Source: Latilactobacillus sakei (GTDB taxonomy: Bacteria; Bacillota; Bacilli; Lactobacillales; Lactobacillaceae). Taken from it: DNA of 64,000 nt. The notes beneath the pieces were generated by a model that saw only the letters and a program-made list of their open reading frames with translations, ran no database searches and was not told the origin of the DNA. Both the position numbers and the translations under genes were made by a program. The stretch spans positions 558,001-622,000 of the forward strand of contig CP025839.1 of assembly GCA_002953655.1 (NCBI GenBank), given 5' to 3'. Below are positions 744-57,233 of this stretch, in pieces. Numbering within the stretch: position 1 is the stretch's first letter; every line of letters starts with the position of its first letter.

Positions 744-797
744 TTTACACAATCTTTACATTCAGTAGTGTTAGATTTTACAATTCTTTTCTATAAT
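744..797 (+). promoter_or_regulatory. PhoP-box promoter of the pst operon
   Basis: TTTACA occurs at 744-749, 755-760 and 777-782, with a degenerate copy (TAGTGT) at 766-771, giving four half-sites with exact 11-bp period. The last half-site ends 9 bp before a perfect -10 box TATAAT (792-797); no good -35 is present. This is the layout of a promoter activated by an OmpR-family regulator, and the repeat matches the known PhoP box (TTAACA-like repeats, about 5-bp spacers). Phosphate starvation control of the pst operon is inferred from this. Confidence 0.8.
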
Positions 798-48467: not shown

Positions 48468-51400
48468 ATGAAAAAGGTTAGTCGTAAGAAAATGCTCAGG
48501 CGGACATTGTATGTCTGTAGTGGTACGTTATTATTACTAAATAGTGGTGTTGGGGTGGCAAGTGTCTTTGTCATTAATCAAAATCGGGCGCAAGCGAGCC
48601 AGGTGAATCCACGGGCCGGCTTAGCTGATGTCTCGATTTTACAAAATGCGAGTTTAACCTCGACAACGGGGACACAAATGACCCCTAATGCAGAGGGGAA
48701 CTTTGATTTATCGTTAAACTACACAGGACAAGGTGTCGCCACAGTCGGTGTTGCGGATAAAAAAGTATTAGTTTATGCTTTACCCGCTTCACTTCAGGGG
48801 AAAGTTGTTGGCGGTAGTACAGTTGATATTCAAGCTGATCTTTTACCAATTACACCCGGGGATATCCCAGGTGTTAAGCCGTTATTTGATGCGTTAGGCT
48901 TAGCGATTACTGCATTGGATAAGGCTTTAAAAATTCCAGCAGTAGTTGCAGCCTTTGATGATTTGAAGCAAGTTCAAAGTTTAGGTAGTTATCAAGAAAC
49001 GGTAACTGCTAATGTCTCCCCGGATGGCAAAACAATTTCGGTCGACTTTACGCAAGGATTTGGGCGTTATGTCCACCAAGCTTACGCAGCCTTATTCCAT
49101 AGTCTCCGGGATGCGATTGCAGCCGTTCATTCGGACAATATCCTAATTGAGACTTTAGTGAAAGCGCTTCAAAAAGCGAGCGCCGAACTTTTTGAAGTAA
49201 TCGATGCGATTGCCGGTGGTACGTCAACAATTTTAGATAGTGCTTTGAGTGGTAATTTATTAGGCTCAGCTAGTGGGACCTTGCATACGACGGTTAGTGA
49301 TCCGGGTGTGCCAACTGCTACGGTGAAAGCAGCAGCCATTAATAATGCCTTAATTTCAGCAGACATTTTGACAGCGATTGAGCAAGAAGGGGAAGCAGTC
49401 ACATTGAATTTCCCAACGACTGCGACTAACCCGATTGAAAATTATGATGTGGCAACGCCAACGGTAACCCAACCAGTGGCGGGGCAAACAACAGTCGCTG
49501 GTAATGTGATTTTAAAAGAACCGATTCCAGCTGGCACCACTTTTGAAGCAGTTGTAACCCTGGATGATGGCACAACTAAGACTGCGGCAGTGCAGGCTGA
49601 CGGAACGTTTGCCGTGGATACGGGGGCTTTAACAGCTGGTCAAATTTTATCGACAAAAGTGGTGGCAACTAACGGCCAATATACAAAAGAAAGTACAGCG
49701 GTTGAATCAACGGTTAGCGATGTTTCAACTGAAAATCCAATCGAAAACTATGATGTGGCAACCCCGACAGTTGATCCTGCGACAGCGGGCGATACGAAAT
49801 TAGACGGCCAAGTGACATTAAATCAACCAATCCCAGCTGGTACGACGTTTAAAGCCGTCGCAACTTTAGCGAACGGCACTGAAGTCAGTGCTGATGTAGA
49901 CACAACGACCGGTAAATTTAGTATCGATACTGATCCATTAGTCGCCGGAGATGTGACGGTGAAAATCGTGGCAACAAATGGACAATTCACAAAACCAAGT
50001 GCCAACGTGACAGTCACAGTTGCGGATGCACCGATTGAAAATCCAATTGCCAATTATGATGTGGCAACCCCGACAGTTGATCCCGCAACAGCTGGCGATA
50101 CGAAATTAGATGGCCAAGTGACATTAAATCAACCAATCCCAGCTGGTACGACGTTTAAAGCCGTCGCAACTTTAGCGAACGGCACTGAAGTCAGTGCTGA
50201 TGTAGACACAACGACCGGTAAATTTAGTATCGATACTGATCCATTAGTCGCCGGAGATGTGACGGTGAAAATCGTGGCAACAAACGGTCAGTTCACGAAA
50301 CCAAGTGCCAACGTAACGGTCACAGTTGTGGATGCACCGATTGAAAATCCAATTGCCAATTACGATGTGGCAACACCAACGGTCAATCCCGCAACAGCTG
50401 GGGATACGAAATTAGATGGCCAAGTGACATTAAATCAACCAATCCCAGCTGGTACGACGTTTAAAGCTGTCGCAACTTTAGCGAATGGGACAGAAGTCAG
50501 TGGTGATGTAGACACAACGACCGGTAAATTTAGTATTGGGACTGATCCATTAATTGCGGGCGATGTAACGGTAAAAATCGTGGCAACAAACGGTCAGTTT
50601 ACAAAACCAAGTGCGAATGTAACGGTGACGGTTGCTGATGCACCAATTGAAGATCCAATCGCCAATTATGATGTGGCAACCCCAACGGTTGAAAAATCTT
50701 TTGCTGGTGATACGAGCGTTAAGGGCCATGTTGACTTGAAGACGCCAATTCCAGATAATACCAATTTTGAAGCAACTGTAACGCTTCCTGGTGGTCGTCA
50801 AGTTAAGGCGGAAGTGCAAGCAAATGGCGACTTTACGGTTAATACAGAAGATCCGCTAGTTGCAGGTAGTCAATTAGCTACCCATATTACAGCCATTAAT
50901 GGTCAATTTACAAAAGAAGGGGCCGCAGTCAACTCAACGGTGGCCGACGCCCTACCAACTGATCCATTAGTTAACTATCAAGTGACAACCCCAACATTGG
51001 ATTCAGCAATTGCTGGTCAAACCAAGGTGAGCGGTCACGTGAACTTACAGGTCCCAATTCCAGAGGGAACAACTTTCAAAGCTGAAGTGCAATTATCTGA
51101 TGGTGGGACCGTTGCAGCCGATGTACAGGCTAACGGTGACTTTGAAGTCCCAACGCGGGCGTTAGTTGCGGGTGAAAATCTATCCGTGAAAGTAATCGCA
51201 CAAAATGGCATCTATCAAAAAGAAAGTACACCAGCCTCATTATTGGTGAGTGAAGTTGTGCCAACCGATCCACTTGAAAATTATACAGTGGCGACACCGG
51301 ATGTTAATCCGATGACAACTGATGATACACAACTAACAGGGAAAGTAACGCTAACGGATATACCAGCTGGTACGACTTTTGAAGCTGTGGTGACAATGGC

Positions 51401-54400
51401 GGATGGTAGTACCAAACGCGCCAATGTTAGCCCTGATGGCCAATTTATAATTGAAACAGGTCAATTAGCGGCTGATGATGTTTTATCGGTTAAAATCACT
51501 GCTAAAAATAGTGGTTATATTAAGGATAGTGCTTCAGTCGACGTGACGGTTACCCAAGCACCGGATACGAATCCATTAGCCAATTATACGGTTGCTCAAC
51601 CAGTTGTAGACGCTGCTTATGCAGGTGATACGACAGTTACTGGGAAGGTTGATCTGACAACGAACCCAGCACCAGCCGGGACAACTTTTGAAGCAACAGT
51701 TATGCTACCAGACGGGACACTTAAAACGGCTGAAGTAGCAGATGACGGTACTTTTACGGTCACAACGGGTGAATTAAAGGCTGATGATATATTAGAAATT
51801 CATGTCACTGCCCACAATAGTGGTTATCAAAAAGAGAGTAATCCAGTTCAATTAACCGTTGACGCGACTGCAGAAACAAATCCGCTTGAAAACTACACGG
51901 TTAATGCACCAGTCGTAGCGCCGTTAACTGAAGGCGATACGGCAGTTAAAGGCCAGGTTAACCTAGGAATTCCGATTCCAAATGGGACGACTTTTGAAGC
52001 GATTGTGACACTTGCAGACGGGACCACTAAAGCTGTTACAATTGGTGCGGATGGTCAATTTACCGTACCAACGGCGGCCTTAGTTGCCGATGAGACGGTC
52101 GCTGTAAAGGTGGTCGCAACTAATGGCACATTTACCAAGGATAGTAGTGTCGTTTACCAAAAAGTGAGTCAAAAATTACCAACGGATCCAATTGCGGATT
52201 ATGAAGTTGGGACACCAACAGTTGATCCGGTAACGGCTGATCAAACGCGTGTCACTGGTCAAGTTGTGCTTGCAGAACCGATTCCAGAAGGCACAAGTTT
52301 TGAAGCAACAGTTACCTTAGCTGACGGCACGCAAAAAACAGCCGTAGTTGATGAAAATGGCCATTTTACAATCGTGACCGGTAACTTAACTGAAGGTGAT
52401 CAATTAACGGTGAAGGTAACCGCTAAGAATAGTATTTATACTAAAGATAGTGCGTTAGTAACGGTAAATGTTGGTCCAGCAGTTGAACAAAATCCACTCG
52501 CTGATTACGATGTCAATATGCCAGTATTGAATCCGGCTAAAGCGGGTGACACACATGTCAGTGGTTCTGTGACATTGAAACAACCAGTGCCGGCAGGAAC
52601 AACTTTTGAAGCGAGCGTGACATTACAAGATGGCACAACGACAACCGCAACAATCTTGCCATCTGGTGAATTTACAGTTGGTACAAAACCATTGACAGCC
52701 GGTGAAATACTATCAGCTAAAGTAACTGCGATTAATGGAAACTTCAAGAAAGATAGTCAGACAGTCAGTTTGACGGTTGATGCAGGCTTACCAACTAATC
52801 CGATTGAAAATTATGACGTGGCAACACCAATGATGCAACCGGCAGTTGAAGGCGAGAAGTCAATCAAGGGGCAAGTTACATTAGCCCAACCAATTCCAAA
52901 TGGGACGAGCTTTAAAGCGGTAATTACATTACCAGACGGCACGACGAAAGCGACAACCATCAATAGTAGTGGTCAGTTCGAATTAACGACCGATGCATTA
53001 GTGGCGGGGCAAACCTATACCGCTAAAGTAGTCGCAACAAATGGTGCGAATATGAAGGAAAGTCAATCCGCTTCCGTCACTGTTTCTGAAAAAGAAGAAA
53101 CAGATCCATTAGTTGATTACAACGTGGCAACCCCAACGATTAATCAAGGAATTGCGGGTGAAACCCAAGTTAGTGGTCAAGTTCAACTTGATCCAGATTG
53201 GCCAGCAGGGACAACCTTTGAAGCGGTGATTGTATTACCAAACGGTCGGACACGCGCTGTGAGACTTGATTCTGGCGCAGTGGCACCGGATGGCAAATTT
53301 ACAATTAATACAACGGCGCTAACGGCTAATCAAAAAGTCTTGGTTAAAATTGTTGCTAAAAATGGCACTTTCACGAAGGACAGTGCAAACGCTGAAATGA
53401 TTGTTAAAGCAGCCCCAATCACTGATCCATTAGAAAACTATGACGTGGCAACCCCAAGCGTTGATCCAGTTAAAGCGGGCGACATAAAAGTGACAGGTAA
53501 AGTCGAATTAACCAAACCAATCCCAGACGGGACAACTTTTGAAGCTGTTGTGACATTGCCAAATGGCGATAAACAAACAGTCACAGTAGATGAAAATGGT
53601 AACTTTAATATCCCAATCGATGCAGTTAGAGAAGGCGACCAATTAACGGTCGAAGTGATCGCACATAATGGTGATCATGAAAAAGGTAGCGATAAAGTTA
53701 ATGTGACGGTCGAAGCTGGTAATCCAGGTGAAACGAACCCACTAGAAAACTACGTCGTGGCTAAACCAAGTGTTGATCCAGTTAAAGCTGGCGACACAAA
53801 AGTGACAGGTAAAGTCGAATTAACCAAACCAATCCCAGACGGGACAAACTTTGAAGCTGTTGTAACATTACCAAATGGCGATAAACAAATAGTCACAGTA
53901 GATGAAAATGGTAACTTTAATATCCCAATCGACGCAGTTAAAGAAGGTGACCAATTAACGGTCGAAGTGATTGCGCATAACGGTGATCATGAAAAAGGTA
54001 GCGATAAAGTTAATGTGATCGTTGAAGCTGGTAATCCAGGCGAAACCAACCCACTAGAAAACTATGTGGTTGCCAAACCAAGTGTTGATCCAGTTAAAGC
54101 TGGCGACACAAAAGTCACAGGTAAAGTTGAATTAACCAAACCAATTCCTAAAGGGACAACTTTTGAAGCAGTTGTGACATTGCCAAATGGTGATAAACAA
54201 ACAGTCACAATTGACGAGAATGGTAACTTTGATATCCCAATCGACGCAGTTAAAGAAGGCGACCAATTAACGGTCGAAGTGATTGCGCATAACGGTGATC
54301 ATGAAAAAGGTAGCGATAAAGTTAATGTGATTGTTGAAGCTGGTAATCCAGGTGAAACCGATCCGCTTGAAAATTACTCAGTAGCAACGCCAACGATTAA

Positions 54401-55982
54401 ACAAGGTGTTGCTGGTGAAACACAAGTTAGTGGGACGGTTCAATTAGATCCAGACTGGCCAGAGGGCACAACTTTTGAAGCTGTTATCGTCTTACCAAAT
54501 GGCCGAACACGGATAGTTCGTCTCGATTCTGGGACAGTTGGGCCAGAAGGACAGTTCATTATCAATACTGCTCAATTGACAGCAAATCAAAAAGTGCAAA
54601 TTAAGATTACAGCTAAAAATGGCACATTTACAAAAGATAGTGCGATTGCTGAAATGATTGTCAAAGCAGCACCGATCACCGATCCATTAGAAGACTATGT
54701 CGTAGCTAAACCAAGCGTTGAACCCGTTAAAGACGGCGACACGAAGGTGACAGGTAAGGTTGTATTAACGCAACCAATTCCAGAAAATACAACTTTTGAA
54801 GCTGTTGTCACAATGCCAAATGGTAAGCAAGAAACAGTACCAGTTGATAAAGATGGTAACTTTGTAGTACCAATCGATGCTGTTAAGTCAGGTGATAAAT
54901 TAACAGTTGAAGTGATTGCCTACAATGGTAACTATCAAAAGGGTAGCGATAAAGTTAATGTGACGGTCGAAGCCGGTAATCCAGGTGAAACGAATCCACT
55001 AGAAAACTATGTGGTTGCGAAACCAAGTGTTGACCCGGTTAAAGCTGGTGATACGAAAGTAACAGGTAAGGTTGTATTAACACAACCAATTCCTAAAGGA
55101 ACGACTTTCGAAGCCGTTGTAACATTGCCAAATGGCGATAAAGTGAAAGTGGCAGTTGATTCAAATGGCAACTTCATATTACCAATCGATGCAGTTAAAG
55201 CAGGTGATAAATTAACGGTCGAAATAATCGCACATAACGGCAATCACGAAAAGGGTAGCGATAAAGTTAATGTGACGGTTGAATCTGGTAATCCAGGTGA
55301 AACCAATCCGCTAGAAAACTACGTTGTTGCTAAACCAAGTGTTGACCCAGTTAAAGCGGGTGATACGCAAGTGACTGGTAAAGTCACTATCAATAAGCCA
55401 TTCCCTAAAGGTACAATGTTTGAAGCAAGCGTGACAATGCCTGATGGTTCCGTTAAATACGGTATGGTTGATATCAACGGCAATTTCATCGTTAAAACAG
55501 GGCAATTAAAAGCCGGTCAAAGATTGATCGTCACGATAATTGCTCACAATGGTGACTTTGAAAAAGATGGTCAACCAGTCAGAATTCGTGTAGCCGCTAA
55601 TGACCAGGATGGCTCTGGTACCGGCAATGGCAATGGCGATACTGGTAACAACACTGGTAACGGTGGCAACACGAATGGTAATTCAAACGGCAGTCATAAC
55701 CCGGGCAATAATAATGCCGGTAATGGTGATAATGGCCAATTAGGGAATTCAAACAACGTCAATAATTTGACGAATAACGGATTGAATAGTAGTCAAAATA
55801 ACCATTACATGTTAAATGTGGGTGTTAGTGACACAACTGGTGGTCAAAATGCTAACAGTAAAGATGGCGATTTACCACAAACAGACGCCAATAAGACTGG
55901 TGTCTGGGCAGCGGTTGGGGCATTCTTAATCGCAATGGTGACACTATTTAAGAGCTTATTACCAATCAAACGTGATAAATAA
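48468..55982 (+). CDS. Giant sortase-anchored surface protein with 20 Ig-like repeats
   Basis: 2504 aa. Signal peptide of about 44 residues after a basic KKVSRKKMLRR start; unique N-terminal domain to about residue 320; then 20 tandem units of about 102 residues (bases 49428-55600), each opening with NP/DP-hydrophobic-xNYxVATPxV and containing PIPAGTTFEAVVTL-like strands, as in bacterial Ig-like (Big) domains; an Asn/Gly/Ser-rich linker; sorting signal LPQTD (55871-55885), hydrophobic helix and KRDK tail. Likely an adhesin or biofilm stalk; ligand unknown. AAGGAG 9 bp before ATG. Confidence 0.88.
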   Translation: MKKVSRKKMLRRTLYVCSGTLLLLNSGVGVASVFVINQNRAQASQVNPRAGLADVSILQNASLTSTTGTQMTPNAEGNFDLSLNYTGQGVATVGVADKKVLVYALPASLQGKVVGGSTVDIQADLLPITPGDIPGVKPLFDALGLAITALDKALKIPAVVAAFDDLKQVQSLGSYQETVTANVSPDGKTISVDFTQGFGRYVHQAYAALFHSLRDAIAAVHSDNILIETLVKALQKASAELFEVIDAIAGGTSTILDSALSGNLLGSASGTLHTTVSDPGVPTATVKAAAINNALISADILTAIEQEGEAVTLNFPTTATNPIENYDVATPTVTQPVAGQTTVAGNVILKEPIPAGTTFEAVVTLDDGTTKTAAVQADGTFAVDTGALTAGQILSTKVVATNGQYTKESTAVESTVSDVSTENPIENYDVATPTVDPATAGDTKLDGQVTLNQPIPAGTTFKAVATLANGTEVSADVDTTTGKFSIDTDPLVAGDVTVKIVATNGQFTKPSANVTVTVADAPIENPIANYDVATPTVDPATAGDTKLDGQVTLNQPIPAGTTFKAVATLANGTEVSADVDTTTGKFSIDTDPLVAGDVTVKIVATNGQFTKPSANVTVTVVDAPIENPIANYDVATPTVNPATAGDTKLDGQVTLNQPIPAGTTFKAVATLANGTEVSGDVDTTTGKFSIGTDPLIAGDVTVKIVATNGQFTKPSANVTVTVADAPIEDPIANYDVATPTVEKSFAGDTSVKGHVDLKTPIPDNTNFEATVTLPGGRQVKAEVQANGDFTVNTEDPLVAGSQLATHITAINGQFTKEGAAVNSTVADALPTDPLVNYQVTTPTLDSAIAGQTKVSGHVNLQVPIPEGTTFKAEVQLSDGGTVAADVQANGDFEVPTRALVAGENLSVKVIAQNGIYQKESTPASLLVSEVVPTDPLENYTVATPDVNPMTTDDTQLTGKVTLTDIPAGTTFEAVVTMADGSTKRANVSPDGQFIIETGQLAADDVLSVKITAKNSGYIKDSASVDVTVTQAPDTNPLANYTVAQPVVDAAYAGDTTVTGKVDLTTNPAPAGTTFEATVMLPDGTLKTAEVADDGTFTVTTGELKADDILEIHVTAHNSGYQKESNPVQLTVDATAETNPLENYTVNAPVVAPLTEGDTAVKGQVNLGIPIPNGTTFEAIVTLADGTTKAVTIGADGQFTVPTAALVADETVAVKVVATNGTFTKDSSVVYQKVSQKLPTDPIADYEVGTPTVDPVTADQTRVTGQVVLAEPIPEGTSFEATVTLADGTQKTAVVDENGHFTIVTGNLTEGDQLTVKVTAKNSIYTKDSALVTVNVGPAVEQNPLADYDVNMPVLNPAKAGDTHVSGSVTLKQPVPAGTTFEASVTLQDGTTTTATILPSGEFTVGTKPLTAGEILSAKVTAINGNFKKDSQTVSLTVDAGLPTNPIENYDVATPMMQPAVEGEKSIKGQVTLAQPIPNGTSFKAVITLPDGTTKATTINSSGQFELTTDALVAGQTYTAKVVATNGANMKESQSASVTVSEKEETDPLVDYNVATPTINQGIAGETQVSGQVQLDPDWPAGTTFEAVIVLPNGRTRAVRLDSGAVAPDGKFTINTTALTANQKVLVKIVAKNGTFTKDSANAEMIVKAAPITDPLENYDVATPSVDPVKAGDIKVTGKVELTKPIPDGTTFEAVVTLPNGDKQTVTVDENGNFNIPIDAVREGDQLTVEVIAHNGDHEKGSDKVNVTVEAGNPGETNPLENYVVAKPSVDPVKAGDTKVTGKVELTKPIPDGTNFEAVVTLPNGDKQIVTVDENGNFNIPIDAVKEGDQLTVEVIAHNGDHEKGSDKVNVIVEAGNPGETNPLENYVVAKPSVDPVKAGDTKVTGKVELTKPIPKGTTFEAVVTLPNGDKQTVTIDENGNFDIPIDAVKEGDQLTVEVIAHNGDHEKGSDKVNVIVEAGNPGETDPLENYSVATPTIKQGVAGETQVSGTVQLDPDWPEGTTFEAVIVLPNGRTRIVRLDSGTVGPEGQFIINTAQLTANQKVQIKITAKNGTFTKDSAIAEMIVKAAPITDPLEDYVVAKPSVEPVKDGDTKVTGKVVLTQPIPENTTFEAVVTMPNGKQETVPVDKDGNFVVPIDAVKSGDKLTVEVIAYNGNYQKGSDKVNVTVEAGNPGETNPLENYVVAKPSVDPVKAGDTKVTGKVVLTQPIPKGTTFEAVVTLPNGDKVKVAVDSNGNFILPIDAVKAGDKLTVEIIAHNGNHEKGSDKVNVTVESGNPGETNPLENYVVAKPSVDPVKAGDTQVTGKVTINKPFPKGTMFEASVTMPDGSVKYGMVDINGNFIVKTGQLKAGQRLIVTIIAHNGDFEKDGQPVRIRVAANDQDGSGTGNGNGDTGNNTGNGGNTNGNSNGSHNPGNNNAGNGDNGQLGNSNNVNNLTNNGLNSSQNNHYMLNVGVSDTTGGQNANSKDGDLPQTDANKTGVWAAVGAFLIAMVTLFKSLLPIKRDK
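49428..55600 (+). repeat. Tandem array of about 306-bp repeats in the surface-protein gene
   Basis: Twenty units. Units 2, 3 and 4 (49734-50039, 50040-50345, 50346-50651) are almost identical in bases including silent positions, as are units 14-16 and 19-20 (from about 53424), whereas units 5-12 have diverged. Unit 17 repeats the variant form of unit 13. This pattern indicates recent unequal recombination and likely length variation between strains. Confidence 0.85.
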
Positions 55983-56003: not shown

Positions 56004-56138
56004 CAAAAAAAGGGTGATCATCATGATCACCCTTTTTGTATTTTCTTGGAAGGAAAATCGAGCTAGCGGGGATTGAACCCGCATTGATCATCATTTAGTG
56101 TTTCTAACTTGATTTTTCTTGGGAGGAATTTATCTGAT
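56004..56138 (-). ncRNA. Candidate anti-Shine-Dalgarno sRNA 2 with tRNA-like minihelix
   Basis: About 135 nt on the reverse strand. Promoter -10 TATTCT (56150-56145), start near 56138, end at the T7 terminator. The 5' open stretch has UUCCUCCCAAG (CCUCCC at 56126-56121). Next is a long stem (56105-56116 with 56054-56065, one mismatch, one wobble) holding a T-arm-like hairpin GCGGG-UUCAAUC-CCCGC (56082-56066). A second C-rich stretch CCUUCC lies at 56053-56048. No ORF. Existence and ends are inferred, not measured. Confidence 0.6.
56007..56037. terminator. Terminator shared by surface-protein gene and sRNA 2
   Basis: GGGTGATCA/TGATCACCC stem, loop TCA, with A5-7 upstream and T5 downstream. 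On the reverse strand the tail is T7, making it the end of the proposed RNA of 56004-56138. Confidence 0.9.
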
Positions 56139-56144
56139 GTATAA

Positions 56145-56176
56145 AGAATACCAATTGAATGTGAACGAAATGTGAA
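56145..56176 (-). promoter_or_regulatory. Promoter of sRNA 2 with direct repeat
   Basis: Reverse strand: TTCACA (56176-56171), 5 bp, TTCACA (56165-56160), 9 bp, -10 TATTCT (56150-56145). The 11-bp repeat period and the 9-bp gap equal those in the pstS promoter (TTTACA repeats, gap 9, TATAAT). There is no separate -35. Confidence 0.65.
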
Positions 56177-56223
56177 GATTCACAGATGAAACTAAGACGA
56201 ATTGACGGCTTTTATGGGAAAGC

Positions 56224-56271
56224 AAAAATGCGAGGTAAAAAGTCGCTTAACAGCGGCCCTTTACCTCGCAT
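56224..56271 (-). terminator. Terminator of sRNA 1
   Basis: Perfect 12-bp stem ATGCGAGGTAAA/TTTACCTCGCAT with inner CGCT/AGCG; on the reverse strand it is followed by T5. On the forward strand only CTTT follows, which sets the direction. Confidence 0.85.
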
Positions 56272-56435
56272 CTTTGGTTGGCCAGCTATTGGGAGATAGC
56301 GGCCTGGCAATTGAAGTTCTTGGGAGGAATTTCAATTGATTACTTATTATTAGGATGGTTCTGGGAGTAAATCGACATAGGGAGGTATGCCGATTCGGTT
56401 AATCAGATGATACTTGGGAGGCGTTCATCTGATAT
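56224..56435 (-). ncRNA. Candidate anti-Shine-Dalgarno sRNA 1 with multiple CCUCCC loops
   Basis: About 212 nt on the reverse strand, no ORF. In 5' to 3' order: hairpin AUCAGAUGA/UCAUCUGAU with loop CGCCUCCCAAG (56433-56402); hairpin AAUCG-CAUA type stem with six-base loop CCUCCC (56395-56370); open ACUCCC (56368-56363); hairpin CAAUUGAA/UUCAAUUG with loop UCCUCCCAAG (56338-56308); hairpin GCUAU/AUAGC with loop CUCCCA (56300-56285); terminator. Five copies of a Shine-Dalgarno complement in loops or open RNA is the design of csRNA and LhrC regulators. Confidence 0.65.
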
Positions 56436-56441
56436 ATATAT

Positions 56442-56473
56442 AGAATAACAATTAAATATGAACAAAGTATGAA
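56442..56473 (-). promoter_or_regulatory. Promoter of sRNA 1 with direct repeat
   Basis: Reverse strand: TTCATA (56473-56468), 5 bp, TTCATA (56462-56457), 9 bp, -10 TATTCT (56447-56442). About 50 bp around it align with the sRNA 2 promoter (shared AATTG, TATTCT, ATCAGAT), so the two units arose by duplication. Confidence 0.65.
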
Positions 56474-56556: not shown

Positions 56557-56588
56557 TTAGATAGTGATAAATTTAGGAGGCGTTTTAA

Positions 56589-57233
56589 ATGGAAAAGGTA
56601 TTAATATTAGGGGCGCATGGCAAGATTGCACAATTGACACGAGCACTATTGCTAGCTAAAACGGATGCGCAATTAGTGTTATTTCTAAGAAAAGCGAACC
56701 GACTAACAATCCAAGATCAACAACGCGAACAGTTGGTTGAAGGTGATGCTAGCCAGCAAGTCGATTTAGTCCAAGCGATGAAGGGCGTCACAGTCGTCTA
56801 CGCAAATTTAGCGGGCGTTAATATTGAAACGCAGGCTAAAGCCGTTGTATCTGCTATGAAAACAGCGGGGGTTAAACGCTTAATTTGGATTTCAACACTC
56901 GGTATCTATGACGAAGTTCCCGGGGCATACGGTCAGTGGAACCATCAAATGTTAGACGATGGTTATTTACCAACATACGCAGCCGCCGCCAAGGTAATTG
57001 AAACGTCAGGATTAGCCTTTACAATTATTCGCCCAGCTTGGTTATCTGATAAGGACGAAATCGATTATGAAATTACACATCGTGCGGATGCTTTCAAAGG
57101 GACCGAAGTTTCCAGAAAAAGCGTCGCTGCAGAAGTTGTTCATTTGATTCAAAACCCAACTGAAGCAGTTGGTGATTCATTGGGCTTAAATAAACCCAAT
57201 ACAGAGGGTGACAAACCAGAATGGTACCGCTAA
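56589..57233 (+). CDS. NAD(P)-binding reductase, NmrA/atypical SDR type
   Basis: 214 aa Rossmann protein: LILGAHGKIAQLTRALL at the N-terminus (GxxGxxG-like), WISTLGIYDE, and IIRPAWLSD. Similar to YwnB/YtfG-type NAD(P)H-binding proteins. Substrate unknown. Ribosome site TTAGGAGG. Own terminator follows. Confidence 0.8.
   Translation: MEKVLILGAHGKIAQLTRALLLAKTDAQLVLFLRKANRLTIQDQQREQLVEGDASQQVDLVQAMKGVTVVYANLAGVNIETQAKAVVSAMKTAGVKRLIWISTLGIYDEVPGAYGQWNHQMLDDGYLPTYAAAAKVIETSGLAFTIIRPAWLSDKDEIDYEITHRADAFKGTEVSRKSVAAEVVHLIQNPTEAVGDSLGLNKPNTEGDKPEWYR

Follow-up and report, generated by a model that had tools for sequence, protein, structure and literature searches.

In the window, by which we mean the whole 64-kb stretch of DNA analyzed here, two units on the reverse strand lie between gene 48468-55982, which runs convergently toward them, and the divergent gene 56589-57233 (Table 1). 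The former encodes an adhesin-like surface protein of 2504 aa with many similar repeats and a Ca_tandemer match, whereas the latter has a weak, sub-cut-off match to HpnA and may encode an NAD(P)-binding protein. An initial annotation had described the stretch as a pair of tandem sRNA genes, each provided with a -10 box and a T-tailed terminator and displaying complements of the Shine-Dalgarno (SD) sequence in hairpin loops. The description of the terminators holds for both units, each of which indeed carries TATTCT (56447-56442 and 56150-56145), and the motif coordinates given turned out to be exact throughout.

Table 1. Features of the sRNA locus in the window and of the related loci in the genus.
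Feature	Position	Strand	Remarks
Unit 1, promoter box TTCATA-N5-TTCATA	56457..56473	-	Conserved in G005
Unit 1, -10 box TATTCT	56442..56447	-	15 nt past the start of the second half site
Unit 1, putative sRNA	56224..56435	-	Four anti-SD hairpins, one open CUCCC, terminator
Unit 1, hairpin 1, 5' arm and loop (AACGCCUCCCAAG)	56413..56433	-	
Unit 1, hairpin 3	56308..56338	-	7-nt loop CUCCCAA, closing UUC/GAA
Unit 1, hairpin 4	56281..56303	-	Loop UCUCCC
Unit 1, terminator hairpin and T tail	56224..56274	-	
Unit 2, promoter box TTCACA-N5-TTCACA	56160..56176	-	
Unit 2, -10 box TATTCT	56145..56150	-	
Unit 2, putative sRNA	56005..56138	-	Anti-SD motif; incomplete tRNA-like fold without D arm; hairpin with CCUUCC; terminator
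Unit 2, tRNA-like T arm and acceptor 3' strand (GCGGGTTCAATCCCCGCTAGCTCGA)	56058..56082	-	From aligned relatives
Bidirectional terminator	56005..56037	both	Common to unit 2 and the convergent adhesin-like gene 48468-55982
Locus A	downstream of fusA		6 genomes
Locus B (the window locus)	adjoins the same divergent gene		5 genomes; apparently elsewhere in G002
Locus C			G001, G002

Unit 1 reads CCUCCC as the complements of 56416-56421, 56380-56385, and 56322-56327, and further CUCCC motifs as the complements of 56363-56367 and 56291-56295. In agreement with the initial annotation, these motifs are exposed in four hairpin loops and one open stretch, the CUCCC letters being unpaired with a probability of 0.90-1.0 in the folding ensemble. 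None of 2000 dinucleotide shuffles reached the count of five (mean 0.62), and none of 200 shuffles folded as well as the unit itself (-74.4 kcal/mol, z -9.6). Moreover, the 64-kb window has six copies of GGGAGG, the forward-strand form of CCUCCC, and four of these are at the sRNA locus. The predicted RNA start of unit 1 falls at 56433-56435, with two extra letters after the -10 box compared with the other copies.

Unit 2 carries CCUCCC at 56121-56126 and CCUUCC at 56048-56053 (complements). With the former unpaired at 0.63-0.89 and the latter partly paired, exposure is less clean than in unit 1, and its single CUCCC is unremarkable by count, as one is reached by 347 of 2000 shuffles. A generic scan found no sigma-70 promoter on the reverse strand and two on the forward strand, with 2.9 expected by chance; it did not return the hairpin at 56224-56271 and gave the terminator at 56007-56037 for the forward strand only. 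An Rfam scan of the window gave no family at its cut-off. The earlier statement that the units hold no ORF stands for the reverse strand of unit 1; the end of unit 2 is overlapped by a 41-aa reverse ORF (56084-55959), but this ORF reads through the terminator.

A DNA search found related sequences in all six Latilactobacillus genomes (the window genome G000; G001; G005; G002, L. fragifolii; G003, L. fuchuensis; and G004, L. graminis; the three species names rest on 100% DNA identity), with two or three loci in each, including a further locus of the sRNA family in the window genome (Table 1). The gene upstream of locus A we take from its sequence to be fusA (EF-G). The initial annotation had named a lack of conserved loops and stems in relatives as one of the observations that would speak against it; loops and stems are kept, with covarying folds. 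In locus A of G001 and G004 (L013, L014), we also saw by eye a hairpin-like insert of >100 nt (TGCTTTTCAAGGTGG...TTACCTTGAAAAGCA) between hairpins 1 and 2.

In a 301-genome family sample, a pattern combining the D arm with CCUCCC was found in 8 genomes, namely the six of the genus and two others; with four hits in the reversed control, the matches in these two seem fortuitous. Searching genome contigs with the hairpin-3 core gave 19 stretches, six being the Latilactobacillus loci; the remaining 13 were rejected as relatives, having neither a second CCTCCC nor the GGTTCAA/GGTTCGA of a T arm within 200 nt. A plasmid or phage origin was likewise set aside, as one query each against plasmids, phages, and viral contigs (the last with the hairpin-3 core) gave no match.

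In 13 units, the RNA folds into a tRNA-like cloverleaf with an acceptor, a D arm, a long anticodon arm, and a T arm. The parts follow each other as hairpin 1, usually hairpin 2, UGAGUUA (acceptor), GUUUAAU-GGUAAAAC (D arm), and the anticodon arm; an insert whose length varies comes next, and GCGGGUUCAAUCCCCGC (T arm) and UAACUCG close the series. The tip of the anticodon arm reads UUC-CUCCCAA-GAA, with a 7-nt loop that is CUCCCUA in 3 of the 13 units. A stretch of the anticodon-arm insert, TTTCGAAGGCAC, is conserved in several units (L006, L022, L009-L011), L022 differing by one letter after it. Across the alignment, 95.8% of the cells pair and 10 of the 26 pairs are changed on both sides, in 29 cells altogether, a result that none of 500 shuffles gave; examples are A-U to C-G in the acceptor, U-A to C-G in the D stem, G-C/U-A/C-G in the anticodon stem, and C-G to U-A in the T stem. 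Because related sequences can beat such shuffles without any structure, a slide control and the tRNA model were also needed. Sliding the partners by 1-3 columns lowered the paired cells from 95.8% to 27-49%. Position 1-72 is U-G and invariant (13/13), and the minimum free energy structure of one G005 unit is the cloverleaf itself (z -4.3).

The Rfam tRNA model (RF00005, cut-off 29 bits) scored 35.7-37.2 bits in 4 of the 8 loci scanned, corresponding to three distinct units as two of these loci overlap, and 28.3 bits in one more; no tRNA row was returned for the other three loci or for window unit 2. Other permissive Rfam matches (RatA, MicX, STnc, and others) were below their cut-offs and treated as chance. 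ARAGORN called no tRNA and no tmRNA in 15 loci, and a test for an ordinary tRNA anticodon arm fails, as that of the cloverleaf holds an extra hairpin. A covariance model of the tRNA-like part (R1), which the 13 units match by construction because it was built from them, gave 81.6-103.5 bits in 11 units. The other two, at locus A in G000 and G005, had 50.3 and 52.3 bits, no more than ordinary tRNA-Trp with its scores of up to 54.1. The best listed R1 matches outside the genus (79 nt) were discarded as relatives, being tRNA-Trp in the six loci checked. A comparison of the arms with the 33 anticodon types present in 31 loci of the window genome placed tRNA-Trp first (mean identity 0.759) and tRNA-Gly(CCC) second (0.735). 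As the best parent per unit is split (tRNA-Trp in 6 of 13, tRNA-Gly(CCC) in 4, others in 3), we left the parent tRNA undecided.

At the window locus, G005 has three units: a unit 1, one in the middle, and one with the full tRNA-like fold. Compared by eye, unit 2 is the start of a tRNA-like unit joined straight to the sequence that follows hairpin 3, and the join falls at AAATTCCTCCCAAGAA, a repeat common to hairpins 1 and 3, so that a deletion by recombination would explain it. Of the tRNA-like part, unit 2 retains the T arm and some of the acceptor; it also has the CCUUCC hairpin and the terminator and is, as judged from this comparison, a deletion remnant of a tRNA-like unit. The copy with all arms sits, in the window genome, at locus A.

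The promoters of these units follow one design: TTCAYA-N5-TTCAYA, nine letters, TATTCT (TAATCT once), and usually six letters to AUCAGAU. Among 17 units of loci A-C, with window unit 1 counted though it is outside the spacing filter of the script, TTCAYA stands at the proximal half site of 16 (GTCCCA in C_G001) and at the distal one of 14, the other three reading GTCACA. The sRNA promoters present direct repeats phased by 11 bp at a fixed distance from the -10 box, of the type used by the OmpR family. The strict pattern matches four times in the own genome and its reversed control never; three matches are the sRNA promoters of the loci, and the fourth precedes another intergenic RNA with C-rich loops.

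This related RNA is present in all six genus genomes, where its identity to the copy of the window genome is 81-95% and 9 of 45 pairs are changed on both sides, and matches were obtained in 40 of 151 family genomes and 12 of 40 genera, the own one included, most of them only 22-50 nt long. It was seen at L070:1190-1480 (-), L122-L127, and L142-L160, with five matches each in G053 and G133 and two close copies in L145. The set read comprised 20 regions from 18 of the 34 matching genomes outside the genus, plus six genus loci. In the elements read, which come from eight genera, CUUUUUCAUUUUACUCCUCCAAAGUA or a near variant of it complements, in a single block, an SD (GGAGGAG), a spacer, and AUG-AAA-AAG; C-rich loops are also present in other hairpins and several terminators. 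The promoter box geometry lies 69-123 nt upstream in 28 of 29 elements (25 loci, 8 genera), region L161 having been left out because it has no element by the strict pattern. Elsewhere in the 86,650 positions of those loci, on both strands, the same pattern occurs 0 times, a count that serves as control as the pattern was set after the sequences had been seen. In 28 related RNAs, with ends set roughly by the first T run, CCC occurs 161 times and GGG 8 times. Alignments of 16 of the 28 (A3) and of the six genus ones (A4) were made; a permissive Rfam scan of one locus gave nothing at cut-off. The window units and the related RNA have no sequence homology beyond the box and the C-rich loops, and we treat them as one regulon and not as one family.

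We also looked at candidate targets. Among the 57 window genes, the divergent gene 56589-57233 gave the top pairing with the SD/AUG complement of the related RNA, and its start region pairs strongly with hairpins 1 (-19.3) and 3 (-18.6). In particular, AACGCCUCC of hairpin 1 of unit 1 is a perfect 9-nt complement to the SD region GGAGGCGTT at 56576-56584, a match that also holds in G005. The cognate pairing is weaker in G001, G004, and G003 (energies of -13.7, -6.4, and -12.7), and we therefore regard the gene as a species-level candidate target; in G004 and G003, a non-cognate start region outscores the cognate one, and in G002, the script did not find the counterpart of the neighboring gene beside the B locus. 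A pairing conserved across the genus was thus rejected, being strong in G000 and G005 only and mixed elsewhere. Secreted proteins (MKK starts) as a target class were also rejected, as no bias toward genes with a hydrophobic N-terminus was found (p 0.78 and 0.25; 57 window genes, 8 of them with such an N-terminus).

Which regulator could recognize the box? PhoP was our initial candidate because the pst promoters have the same ladder: phosphate limitation would drive the sRNAs through a variant of the PhoP box, placing them in the Pho response. One pstS promoter in each genus genome (6/6) indeed has the same 11-bp phasing and the same 15 nt from the last half site to the -10 box, five further pstS loci of the genus having the proximal half site only, and pst is found in the same window, behind a PnpS-type kinase gene running into it. 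The regulator beside pst, for which no equivalog scored over its cut-off, we take to be PhoP. Across Lactobacillaceae (window 744-797; pstS loci L128-L138, L162-L191), pst promoters often read TTTACA-N5-TTTACA-N16-TTTACA-N9-(-10), and this ladder is likely the PhoP box; the pho regulon of lactobacilli is still to be characterized according to the accessible text of a PhoPR paper (PMC11084836). On the contrary, the pst half sites are TTTACA in the genus and, among 30 pstS loci from 20 other genomes, in 20 (one of them with a proximal TTTATA), the remaining 10 giving no ladder by script. The sRNA promoters lack TTTACA and have half sites of the TCAYA type, with TCAAA at 2 of 28 proximal positions. 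Among the regulator genes, that of a PieR-like protein shows the TTCAYA form and the one beside pst does not. Control by PhoP thus appears unlikely to us.

The window genome encodes six OmpR-type regulators, and the box is present in the promoter of a single one of them, the PieR-like protein. Its gene (~G000:C1:1370311-1371051; L192, L198) is followed by a kinase gene, and the promoter, read by eye, is TTCATA-N5-TTCATA-N5-TTCATC-N5-ttggtt-N9-TATAAT, with the half sites in phase with TATAAT. The protein scores 299 bits to PieR, below the cut-off of 450. This box is known from one genome, and its weight rests on place and phasing because a chance match of two half sites in the ~39 kb scanned on both strands is not improbable. 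Considering that the pst half sites are TTTACA and not TTCAYA and that only this gene has the box, the PieR-like protein is a better guess than PhoP. In Listeria, PieRS controls how PrsA2, PrsA1, and products of unknown function are secreted, and in the accessible portion of that paper we found neither a binding consensus nor a small RNA (PMC12234432). Several further explanations concern the RNAs themselves. The forward strand could be the functional one, through repeated leaders of the form GGGAGGAA...ATG that resemble ribosome binding sites or through short ORFs, given that several hairpins read as an SD plus a possible start codon and that a 45-aa ORF with a TTG start is present (+ strand, 56202-56339). 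We consider this highly improbable, as the promoter box, the T-tailed terminators, the open loops, and the tRNA fold all fit the reverse strand, and so do the excess of CCC over GGG in the related RNAs and the box upstream of all but one of their elements. The tRNA-like part might be a decaying tRNA pseudogene or an attachment-site scar, functionless beside the sRNA hairpins: window unit 2 has no D arm, acceptor pairs are broken in locus C of G002, and ARAGORN recognized none of the 15 loci. Nonetheless, the compensatory changes in the acceptor, D, anticodon, and T stems of the 13 units, the constant order of the parts at several loci in six species, the invariant U1-G72, and the lack of plasmid, phage, or viral-contig matches with one query each make such an origin improbable. 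Finally, many redundant loops on one RNA would suit titration, as expected of decoys or sponges for another RNA or a protein, but the loops are complementary to the SD, and the related RNA complements SD plus AUG as a single block, which suits mRNA starts; a role as decoys instead of direct SD blockers is in our opinion quite unlikely.

Altogether, the anti-SD RNAs form a real set, structured and conserved, one branch of which is unusual in being tRNA-like. It is probably a multicopy anti-SD sRNA regulon driven by a two-component system and akin to csRNA and LhrC. The initial proposal of a csRNA/LhrC-like pair is, as to its kind, strongly favored on comparative grounds by conservation, covariation, and a response-regulator-type box, whereas the tandem pair has to be replaced by a wider picture: unit 2 is a tRNA-like unit shortened by deletion, a further locus exists in the genome, and an RNA with the same box and design occurs in several genera. 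Under this regulon model, the stretch would encode regulatory RNAs that are transcribed from the reverse strand and depend on an activator. This activator, a phosphorylated response regulator for which the PieR-like protein is the best candidate, would bind TTCAYA-N5-TTCAYA in place of a -35 box and turn on several sRNA loci simultaneously. The looped CUCCC motifs would then pair with SD sites of the GGGAG type and block 30S binding, so that one RNA could titrate many mRNAs; protein synthesis from chosen genes would probably be switched off in this way under stress. In most copies outside the window, one anti-SD loop would cap a cloverleaf that stems from a tRNA gene and that probably adds stability or allows processing by tRNA enzymes. 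Unit 1 would be the hairpins-only version, and unit 2 would have lost most of its cloverleaf by recombination between two anti-SD hairpins.

We can also imagine a bolder scenario, which we offer tentatively as a possibility. A tRNA gene may have been turned into a regulator, its anticodon arm becoming an anti-SD loop while the tRNA machinery (presumably RNase P/Z, CCA addition, or ribosome binding) would still use the fold for producing, protecting, or directing the RNA, beside a Lactobacillaceae-wide anti-SD set driven by the PieR-like regulator that would convert envelope or secretion stress into broad translational repression. If true, the tRNA-like branch would show directly how a tRNA can be remade into a regulatory RNA, its anticodon loop turned anti-SD loop, and the action of tRNA enzymes on such hybrids would become testable in a food bacterium. 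In addition, if the regulon model is true, its readable promoter code would make it findable in several genera, and a candidate regulator would be at hand.

Compared with tRNA (RF00005), the cloverleaf shares the acceptor, D, anticodon, and T arms as well as the T loop UUCAAUC. The tip loop CUCCCAA is one letter away both from CUCCAAA of tRNA-Trp(CCA) and from UUCCCAA of tRNA-Gly(CCC). The anti-SD loop may have grown out of the anticodon loop. It differs from tRNA in the extra hairpin joined to the anticodon arm, long copies having ~90 nt more than the shortest, in U1-G72, and in that the fold is embedded in a longer RNA. tmRNA is another case of a tRNA-like fold joined to a different functional RNA part; compared with it, the cloverleaf units have a D arm, and anti-SD loops in place of the tag frame.

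The csRNAs of Streptococcus, controlled by CiaRH, are multicopy, have a promoter made of a direct repeat-N5-direct repeat at a fixed step to the -10 box, and expose unpaired stretches complementary to SD and AUG, and a CiaH homologue was not found in Lactobacillus, as stated in the text available of PMC3091779. The RNAs described here likewise have several copies per genome, direct repeats spaced by N5, and, in unit 1, an exposed SD complement. They depart from the csRNAs, as far as that text portrays them, by the box, TTCAYA instead of the CiaR box TTTAAG-N5-TTTAAG, by the larger number of loops in unit 1, and by the tRNA-like cloverleaf of 13 units. A complement of SD and AUG is present in the related RNA (CUUUUUCAUUUUACUCCUCC) and, as CAUUUGAAAUUCCUCCC, in 10 of the 13 cloverleaf copies of hairpin 3, where CAU is in the stem, while window hairpin 3 reads CAAUUGAAAUUCCUCCC, without CAU. 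The LhrC1-5 sRNAs of L. monocytogenes, under LisRK, are also multicopy and under two-component control, and they carry UCCC redundantly: in a stem-loop, in an open stretch, and in the terminator; the accessible part of that paper neither names a LisR consensus nor mentions a tRNA-like domain (PMC4132741). Unit 1 resembles them by its redundant UCCC in loops and an open stretch, and the LhrC family had no match in the Rfam scans of the window, eight genus loci, and one related-RNA locus. Both kinds act in the manner that we propose for the set, which belongs to neither csRNA nor LhrC because the box, for the former, or the family model, for the latter, differs. Among open-license PMC papers, we found no published description of this sRNA system, although one may exist. 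If our reading is true, lactobacilli own a counterpart of the csRNA and LhrC networks.
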